Made by a program: the position numbers and the translations under genes. From assembly GCA_036405135.1 (NCBI GenBank), contig DASWYF010000040.1, positions 124,001-188,000 on the forward strand: a stretch of DNA of 64,000 nt, read 5' to 3'. Under the pieces are notes generated by a model. It saw only the letters and a program-made list of their open reading frames with translations, had not been told where the DNA came from and ran no database searches. The DNA comes from Verrucomicrobiia bacterium. GTDB lineage: Bacteria; Verrucomicrobiota; Verrucomicrobiia; Limisphaerales; JAEYXS01. Positions 10,641-13,114 of this stretch are shown here, one piece after another; the stretch's first letter is position 1; each line of letters opens with the position of its first letter.

Positions 10641-10781
10641 CCCCTCACCCCAGCCCTCTCCCCTCCAAGGGGCGAGGGAGATGGGAGCGGTAGGTTTCGA
10701 CGATGGCAAGTCGAGGTTATTACGTGGCCTTGACGAAAAGAGTCAGGGCTCAAGAGACTTTCGCCCTACCGGGATATCGGT
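10641..10781 (+). repeat. Composite palindromic intergenic repeat, copy 1
   Basis: Two parts. The first is a pyrimidine-rich arm (CCCTCACCCCAGCCCTCTCC from 10642) with its complement GGGGCGAGGGAG (10669-10680). The second carries GCCTTGACG (10727) and ends in CGCCCTACCGG (10762-10772), the other half of a second inverted repeat opening with AGGGC. The same two-part layout recurs at 15751-15910. It may act as a terminator or be a non-autonomous mobile element; only the recurrence is seen. Confidence 0.6.
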
Positions 10782-11606
10782 TCACCCTCTGAGGCCTACG
10801 ATATCCATGCGCTTGGCGGTTTCGCGGTAGGCTTCTTCGACCCATTCGACGATGCGTTTTGGGTCAGGAGAGTATTCTAGTTCGATGGAGACGACGCCGT
10901 TGGGGATCGCGAGTTCTTTGATGGCTTGGAGGTAGGGTTCGAATTTCACGACACCGCGGCCGGGCGGGAGATCGCCGTGGACTTTGCCGTCGCAATCACT
11001 GAGGTGGACGTGGATGGCTTTGTTTTTGAGTTTGAGGACGTCGCTCGGGCAGGTGTCGGATAAGACGAGGTGGCTGATGTCGATGTTCGCTTTCACGCGC
11101 GGGTGATTCACTTCATCGACGAAGCGGACCATCTCAGGGATATTGTTCAGGAGGCTGAGGCGGAAGGGTTCAAGTTCCAAGGCGATATCGATCTTTTTTT
11201 TCGCGGCGTAATCGCCGAGCTCGCGGCAGGTATCAACGGCGTATTGCCACTGGGCGGCAGCAGGGATGACTTCGCGTTGCCAGATGTATTCACCGAGGAC
11301 GAGGAGGATGTTTTTCGCGCCCCAGGTTTTGGCGAGGTCGATGAACTTTTTGGTGCGCTCGACGTGATAGGCGCGGACGGGATCGTTGAAATCGATGAGG
11401 CCCACGGAGACGACGGGTAAAGAGATGATGGGCAGCTCGAGTTTTTCGCAGGTGTTCGCCACGAGGCTCACTTCTTTTTTCGAGATGCCGACGGCTTCCG
11501 TGAAGATGTCCACGCAATCAAAGCCGATGCGGGAGATGTGCTTGAGGCCGGTGGCGGTATCGACGCCTGCTTGCTGAAATGCGCTGTTGATGATGCCGAG
11601 CTTCAT
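10782..11606 (-). CDS. Sugar phosphate isomerase/epimerase family protein (TIM barrel)
   Basis: The reading frame is open to 11693, but the ATG at 11606 (MKLGIINSAFQQAGVD) fits the family start and gives 274 residues. It belongs to the xylose-isomerase-like/AP endonuclease 2 TIM-barrel superfamily. Metal-ligand candidates are E in IALELEPFRLSLL, D/H in KANIDISHLVLS, H in IHVHLSDCDGKVHGDLPPG and E near the end in VVSIELEYSPDP. HGDLPPGRG is typical of hydroxypyruvate isomerase/inosose dehydratase-like enzymes. No signal peptide remains with this start. Substrate unknown; it is isolated from other sugar genes, between repeats. Confidence 0.82.
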   Translation of the reverse strand: MKLGIINSAFQQAGVDTATGLKHISRIGFDCVDIFTEAVGISKKEVSLVANTCEKLELPIISLPVVSVGLIDFNDPVRAYHVERTKKFIDLAKTWGAKNILLVLGEYIWQREVIPAAAQWQYAVDTCRELGDYAAKKKIDIALELEPFRLSLLNNIPEMVRFVDEVNHPRVKANIDISHLVLSDTCPSDVLKLKNKAIHVHLSDCDGKVHGDLPPGRGVVKFEPYLQAIKELAIPNGVVSIELEYSPDPKRIVEWVEEAYRETAKRMDIVGLRG

Positions 11607-11760: not shown

Positions 11761-11807
11761 CTCTCACCCCTCACCCCTGCCCTCTCCCCGTTGAGGGGAG
11801 AGGGAGA
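11761..11807 (+). repeat. Palindromic pyrimidine/purine repeat
   Basis: TGCCCTCTCCCCGTTG followed by GAGGGGAGAGGGAG forms an almost perfect hairpin. Its pyrimidine arm (CACCCCTCACCC) is the same type as at 10641. It lies in the 542-bp gap between the epimerase and EamA genes. Confidence 0.65.
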
Positions 11808-11903: not shown

Positions 11904-12108
11904 TTGACATAGGGAAACACTACTGACACCTTCGCGGGCGTGTTCGTAAATCTGCCGAAAGTTAGCAAGCGTCCGGTATGCGTAAAGGCATGCTGGCCGG
12001 TTGCCATTTGGGCAGCCAAGCGTCCGGTGACGCCACGGCAGGATTCGCGAATGTAGCATTATAAACTTTCCGAAACCCGCCGTGATATTCGCGGCGGGTT
12101 TTCTTTTT
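11904..12108 (+). ncRNA. Candidate structured leader RNA or riboswitch upstream of the EamA exporter
   Basis: A noncoding stretch with several nested helices. A closing helix pairs TTCG..AATC.TGCC (11943-11956) with GGCA.GATT..CGAA (12037-12051). Inside are hairpins ATGC/GCAT (11978-11991), TGCC/GGCA (12002-12014) and GCGTC-CGGT-GACGC (12020-12033). The 11-mer AAGCGTCCGGT occurs twice (11967, 12018). GAAAGTT (11957-11963) is exactly complementary to AACTTTC (12064-12070), just before the terminator hairpin, as an attenuator would need. A TTGACA lies at 11904-11909 but no good -10 follows. I do not recognise a known class. Confidence 0.4.
12073..12108 (+). terminator. Strong rho-independent terminator upstream of the EamA gene
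   Basis: AAACCCGCCG (12073-12082) and CGGCGGGTTT (12092-12101) make a perfect 10-bp stem with a 9-nt loop, followed by TCTTTTT. No coding gene precedes it on this strand, so it either ends a small RNA or is the expression platform of a leader controlling the exporter whose ATG is at 12149. Confidence 0.85.
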
Positions 12109-12148: not shown

Positions 12149-13114
12149 ATGAGCACCAATACTAACGCCTCCGCTCCGTCTCGCAGCCTGTTGATCGCGG
12201 CCTTCATCGCGCTCTACACAGTCTGGGGTTCCACGTATCTCGCCATTCGCGTGGCGGTGGAATCGTTGCCGCCGTTTCTGATGGCGGGGGCGCGCTTTGT
12301 GATCGCGGGCGCCCTGCTCTATCTGTTCATGCGCCTGCGGGGTGATGCGCGGCCTACGTTGCAGCATTGGAAGAATTCTTTTATCTCCGGAACGCTTTTG
12401 CTGCTGGGTGGTAACGGATTGGTGGTGTGGGCGGAGCAATATGTCACCAGTGGATTGGCGGCGCTCATCATCGCGATTGTGCCGTTGTGGATCGCGTTGT
12501 TGGATTGGGCGCGACCGCAGGGGGAACGTCCGAGCGGGAAGAATATTCTCGGCATCGCGATCGGGTTTGCGGGCGTCATCCTCTTGGTGATGGGTCAGGG
12601 TAAAGATGTGCATGGGGCGGGCGTCCATGTGGGCGGGATCATCGCGCTCGTCTTTGCGTGCATCCTCTGGGCATGGGGCTCGCTCTTCATGAAACACAAC
12701 GCGCGGCCGACGTCACCATTGCTCGGCGTGGGCATGCAGATGTTGTGCGGGGGCGCGACGCAATTGCTCGTGGGCCTGATGCGCGGGGAGATGGCGCAGA
12801 CGGATTTCAGCGCGTTCACGAACCGTTCGCTGATCGCGTTTGTGTATCTGGTGGTGGTGGGTTCCTGGATCGGTTTCAGCGCTTACATCTGGCTGTTGCA
12901 AGTGTGCAATCCTTCGCTGGTGGCGACGTATGCGTATGTGAATCCGATCGTGGCAGTGTTCCTCGGATGGTGGTTGCTGGATGAGCATTTGAATGGGCAG
13001 ACCATCATGGCGGCAGCGGTCATTGTGGTGGGCGTGTGCGTGATCACGTTGCCGAAGAATTTCGGGGAGATGGTGAACCGCGGAATACGCAGACTACGCG
13101 GAAACTGGGGATGA
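12149..13114 (+). CDS. yedA: EamA-family drug/metabolite exporter (YedA-like)
   Basis: A 321-residue inner-membrane protein with about ten hydrophobic helices arranged as two EamA repeats. Typical phrases are YTVWGSTYLAIRVAVESLPP (about 22-41), GGNGLVVWAEQYVTSGLAAL (about 87-106) and ATYAYVNPIVAVFLGWWLLDE (about 258-278). These match the YedA/RhaT-like subgroup; the exported compound is not known. A good Shine-Dalgarno (GGGAGG, 12136-12141) sets the start. The last codons (NRGIRRLRGNWG) come from a simple repeat, CGCGGAATACGCAGACTACGC, running over the end of the gene. A structured leader with a terminator lies immediately upstream. Confidence 0.9.
   Translation: MSTNTNASAPSRSLLIAAFIALYTVWGSTYLAIRVAVESLPPFLMAGARFVIAGALLYLFMRLRGDARPTLQHWKNSFISGTLLLLGGNGLVVWAEQYVTSGLAALIIAIVPLWIALLDWARPQGERPSGKNILGIAIGFAGVILLVMGQGKDVHGAGVHVGGIIALVFACILWAWGSLFMKHNARPTSPLLGVGMQMLCGGATQLLVGLMRGEMAQTDFSAFTNRSLIAFVYLVVVGSWIGFSAYIWLLQVCNPSLVATYAYVNPIVAVFLGWWLLDEHLNGQTIMAAAVIVVGVCVITLPKNFGEMVNRGIRRLRGNWG

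Follow-up and report, generated by a model that had tools for sequence, protein, structure and literature searches.

TnaC, a leader peptide, stalls at its own stop codon and acts through Rho. Its basic leader with an important Trp is matched by the one described here, where Trp-related regulation is likewise possible (PMC8429421); a ribosome stalled at the stop codon would, however, hide the antiterminator arm at our locus, and this anatomy argues against stop-codon arrest. In the attenuators of trp operons (trpL; peTrpL of Sinorhizobium), a short leader with Trp codons is combined with mutually exclusive antiterminator and terminator structures, and the position of the ribosome sets the outcome (PMC7298713). 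Attenuation dependent on an upstream ORF also acts on efflux and resistance genes, including mef/mel (PMC4335068), VmlR (PMC9226507), and MexXY (PMC13041342). The locus analyzed here shares the anatomy of the trp attenuators, but its target is an exporter rather than Trp synthesis, its Trp residues are single or spaced instead of arranged in runs, the residues around them are conserved, and trpE in leader-bearing genomes is without such a leader. With mef/mel, VmlR, and MexXY it shares the use of an upstream ORF for the control of export or resistance, while differing in that Trp occurs in every leader and in having no known sequence relation to them. Attenuation of this kind is well known as a mechanism. 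The leader family, the exporter target, and the near-leaderless start appear undescribed, and a literature search on leader peptides of EamA genes, like one on leader peptides and attenuation in Verrucomicrobia, turned up nothing relevant.

Within the 64,000-nt stretch that was analyzed (the window), positions 11904-12108 very probably constitute a ribosome-mediated transcription attenuator of an EamA exporter, as judged from sequence comparison and folding (Table 1). The anatomy is that of an attenuator: a short ORF lies between promoter and terminator, antiterminator and terminator are mutually exclusive, and the control codons precede an antiterminator arm that a ribosome at the stop would cover. 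Of the ligand control by attenuation proposed in the preliminary description, transcription attenuation of the exporter is well supported and a ligand-sensing RNA is not. That description located the terminator and the exporter ATG correctly; we count 14 pairs including A-T ends, followed by a T tract, for the former and place the latter at 12149. It was wrong in denying an upstream coding gene on this strand, as a 38-codon ORF spans all of the structured region; besides this leader ORF, it overlooked the alternative pairing and the TTGACA box.

Table 1. Features of the predicted attenuator and its target gene in the window.
Feature	Positions	Strand	Basis or remark
-35-like box TTGACA	11904..11909	+	TTGA[CA] spacing across family
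Weak, putative -10-like hexamer CACCTT	11927..11932	+	placed by family alignment at TTGAC
Predicted leader ORF, 38 codons, GTG...TAG, MFVNLPKVSKRPVCVKACWPVAIWAAKRPVTPRQDSRM	11940..12056	+	near-leaderless
9-bp hairpin ending at first Trp codon; possible pause hairpin	11973..11997	+	
Trp codon 19 of leader	11994..11996	+	invariant alignment column
Trp codon 24 of leader	12009..12011	+	25 nt before antiterminator arm
Antiterminator 5' arm, 3' end of leader ORF	12034..12054	+	fold with 12065-12084; family test
Antiterminator 3' arm, overlapping terminator 5' arm	12065..12084	+	fold with 12034-12054; family test
Intrinsic terminator: stem-loop 12072-12102, then CTTTTT	12072..12108	+	equivalents before orthologs
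EamA/YedA-like exporter gene, the predicted regulated gene	12149..13114	+	Pfam EamA, NCBIfam NF008432

The exporter matches Pfam EamA (1.8e-38) and narrowly passes the cut-off of NCBIfam NF008432, YedA (272.5 bits vs. 270); no solved structure matched it by sequence. Being EamA/YedA-like, the regulated gene lies outside Trp synthesis and uptake, which sets the locus apart from trp leaders. The intergenic region that holds the leader is shared with a divergent minus-strand gene at 10782-11606, sugar-epimerase/isomerase-like (AP_endonuc_2). A dispersed, REP-like palindromic element, CCCTCACCCC..CCCTCTCCCC...GGGGAGAGGG, has two copies nearby (10642-10680 and 11768-11804), and its motif CCCTCTCCCC is enriched in the window (16 occurrences vs. 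6.2 expected).

A DNA similarity search of 58 relatives returned a single true homologue, in the nearest genome (G001), where the region is 71% identical and the leader frame is intact with one 3-nt deletion. Searches with the exporter protein covered 293 genomes of the order, 384 of the class, and three families, and gave a set of 37 upstream regions with a common layout; L033, L189, L190, and L194, checked later, share it. The unit precedes orthologous EamA exporters in about 40 genomes of one class of Verrucomicrobiota, in the order promoter, short basic Ala/Lys-rich ORF with Trp in every case, antiterminator arm at the ORF end, terminator, exporter. Nucleotide sequences of the 37 upstream regions cannot be aligned as a whole; the terminator upstream of the exporter is of the type AACCCGCC...GGCGGGTTTT, and it lies 15-40 nt beyond the leader stop. 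L194, examined once the set was fixed, fits too, reading MRSIQQLPTKPIRLMAASVSLVAWRHHVMAKVAWQTGRRVEA. Curation of the set was visual, and the relatives are not independent. Loci were kept if an ORF was found, making terminator-bearing loci the fair denominator; among those of the order, all except L044 and L053 have a convincing leader. On a tree of 137 exporters, presence of the leader required 8 changes, compared with 27 for shuffled labels, and the 8 are an upper bound, as L080, L189, L190, and L194 were scored leader-less although they carry a leader. A contig scan with the single exporter protein found no match. A profile of the exporter reached 80 loci from many phyla, among which a clear leader was seen solely at L080 (the L065 record), from a Verrucomicrobia bacterium, and this record places the group in Verrucomicrobiota; exporter homologues in other phyla were without a leader. 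Confident matches to a profile of the leader peptide (E ≤ 2.3e-5) occurred exclusively before this exporter, and matches with weak E-values were inspected and rejected as leaders. Two local peculiarities were seen: L054, L189, and L190, all of one genus, have a leader C-terminal part NWWAKANVMAELASGH with tandem Trp-Trp, identical in DNA and peptide, and at L046 (G035:C42, about 1190-1400, + strand) CRISPR-like repeats GTCGCTCCTGACCTCGGTCAGGAGCGCGGATTGAAAC adjoin the downstream end of the exporter gene.

The predicted leader ORF is conserved as a reading frame with Trp codons. Its placement relative to promoter and terminator is correct in 31/31 testable loci (2.9 expected), and all 31 of these ORFs have an in-frame Trp (1.2 expected); when upstream regions were shuffled with dinucleotides preserved, an ORF with the observed placement arose in 9%. 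The window leader scores E 9e-13 against the peptide profile, of which it is itself a member. Trp is found in 37/37 leaders and in 22/22 clusters at <50% identity, making up 4.9% of leader residues, and TGG occurs 68 times in frame vs. 41 and 30 times in the other two frames. Relative to base composition, Ala, Lys, Met, Asn, and Trp are in excess and Glu, Asp, Tyr, and Cys are depleted (z of 7.2 for Ala, 7.4 for Lys, and 5.7 for Trp; -3.8 for Glu and -3.6 for Tyr). Ala directly precedes 18 of 41 Trp residues, and as all four Ala codons are used there, the peptide rather than the RNA alone appears to be under selection. Third codon positions change most (109/95/152), and the pooled pN/pS of 0.59 gives mild support, with the caveat that some pairs are barely <1 and that the alignments were peptide-guided.

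TTGA[CA] was found 34-47 nt upstream of the leader start in 32/37 loci, compared with 0.03 expected per locus, and A-rich -10 positions follow at +24/+25. In the window the leader GTG comes about 36 nt after TTGACA; a sigma-70 consensus scan misses the -10-like CACCTT. From this spacing we infer that transcription starts near 11939, with the GTG at or beside the 5' end. Across the family the leader starts 35-46 nt after the -35-like box in 32/37 loci, a promoter geometry that would leave some 0-10 nt of 5' untranslated sequence.

Pairing of the two antiterminator arms in the window is worth -20.4 kcal/mol (2/200 shuffles as good) and is mutually exclusive with the terminator, which wins once its 3' arm is included (-30.1 kcal/mol). 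Averaged over 36 loci, the antiterminator reaches -23.3 kcal/mol with a ribosome placed at the first Trp codon, vs. -19.4 for the terminator, and drops to -1.5 kcal/mol with the ribosome at the stop codon. Arms from the same genome pair better than swapped arms (0/20,000 permutations as good). The cores covary, CCCGCC going with GGCGG-type arms in 18/21 cases, CCCACC with GGTGG in 7/10, and CCCATC-type with GATGG in 3/4, counts that are inflated by shared ancestry although the switches fall in separate families. The antiterminator arm usually begins 6-38 nt before the leader stop, and Trp codons mostly lie 12-54 nt upstream of the arm. Because the arm sits within coding sequence, constraint on the peptide is confounded with constraint on the RNA.

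We propose that a ribosome starts on the GTG of a transcript beginning near 11939. Moving unhindered to the leader stop, it would cover the antiterminator arm, the terminator would form, and the exporter would stay off. If it were instead detained on the Trp codons or close to them, 25-40 nt before the arm, it would leave the arm free to pair first, and the antiterminator so formed would let RNA polymerase read into the exporter. When the leader is not translated, the closing helix could mask the arm and keep the exporter off, the weakest step of the scheme.

Several structures named in the preliminary description were recovered in folds. The likely transcript, 11939-12108, folds at -75.8 kcal/mol (z -5.1; 0/200 shuffles as good), and its minimum-energy fold contains the closing helix, formed by about 11942-11956 and 12035-12052, as well as the hairpin GCGTC-CGGT-GACGC and the 9-bp hairpin. 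The last is re-formed in G001 through compensating changes (CCGGCCTGC/GCAGGTTGG). Hairpins at the Trp codon had a mean z of -0.8 against synonymous-codon shuffles, with 28/34 leaders negative, and may act as pause hairpins. A conserved masking (protector) helix, equivalent to the closing helix, was rejected: it is seen in the window and drawable in G001, and family-wide 1131/20,000 permutations were as good, so that conservation among relatives is not supported. The duplicated 11-mer is present (11967-11977 and 12018-12028), both copies being in-frame codons for Lys-Arg-Pro-Val of the leader. The complement GAAAGTT (11957-11963)/AACTTTC (12064-12070) also exists, but only AAAG/CTTT is kept in the sister genome, and it is not needed by the attenuator model. 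The supposedly SAM-IV-like GCTGGCCGG turned out to be part of the leader codons for Cys-Trp-Pro-Val. As had been said, the RNA matches no known class: Rfam covariance models at gathering and permissive thresholds gave sub-threshold matches only, driven by the terminator, the best being rnk_leader (25.3 bits vs. 50).

As the trigger of the proposed attenuator we rank low charged tRNA-Trp above a compound-induced stall on the basic Ala-Ala-Trp chain, and this above a TnaC-like response to free Trp. Low charged tRNA-Trp, from Trp shortage or a TrpRS inhibitor, is the simplest reading, which we hold with a little less than even confidence. Such a trigger would be understandable if the transporter exported a TrpRS inhibitor; in Streptomyces, indolmycin induces a TrpRS gene by an attenuation mechanism. 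Against it, Trp shortage would be an unexpected reason to turn on an exporter, and the conservation of residues around Trp resembles that of arrest peptides. The trpE genes of 16 leader-bearing genomes (L209-L228) also speak against it: no terminator-bearing Trp leader was found there, and Trp synthesis in these genomes apparently lacks attenuation of this kind.

A variant of the same attenuator, with another trigger, is a serious if less favored possibility: the basic Ala-Ala-Trp chain would arrest the ribosome together with a ribosome-targeting drug or a substrate of the exporter, which could be free Trp, the ligand of TnaC. Such sensing by the nascent peptide would account for the conservation of residues around Trp despite varied codons and for a basic chain almost devoid of Asp, Glu, and Tyr; induction by substrate suits an exporter, and drug-induced leader attenuation of efflux has precedent (PMC4335068, PMC13041342). 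However, no residue keeps a constant spacing to one stall site, the distance from Trp to stop varies from 4 to 34 codons, and 15/22 diverse leaders have at least two Trp, as in ordinary codon control. The fuller claim of a new, near-leaderless arrest-peptide family with an Ala-Ala-Trp core, which senses a substrate or translation inhibitor and activates the exporter through antitermination, we regard as rather unlikely.

The promoter, ORF, and terminator could also belong to an independent gene for a small protein or small RNA that adjoins the exporter by chance, a reading with which the selected peptide composition agrees; it is improbable, as neither the complementarity of each ORF end to the terminator arm of its own genome, nor the constant position before one exporter clade, nor a stop-to-terminator distance that stays within 15-40 nt would be expected. 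Control of the terminator by a metabolite-binding riboswitch, the view first taken of this stable fold with a terminator ahead of an exporter, is very improbable given that Rfam offers no match, that about 40 relatives conserve a reading frame and Trp codons in place of an RNA core, and that the antiterminator arm lies within the ORF just before its stop.

The ribosome-mediated attenuator thus preferred serves as a reminder that, where a genome is GC-rich, a leader that encodes a peptide can resemble a riboswitch. Its near-leaderless start allows one to ask how leaderless translation couples to attenuation. An apparently undescribed family of leader peptides very likely controls a drug/metabolite exporter in Verrucomicrobiota, and knowledge of the trigger would give a clue to what this uncharacterized exporter transports.
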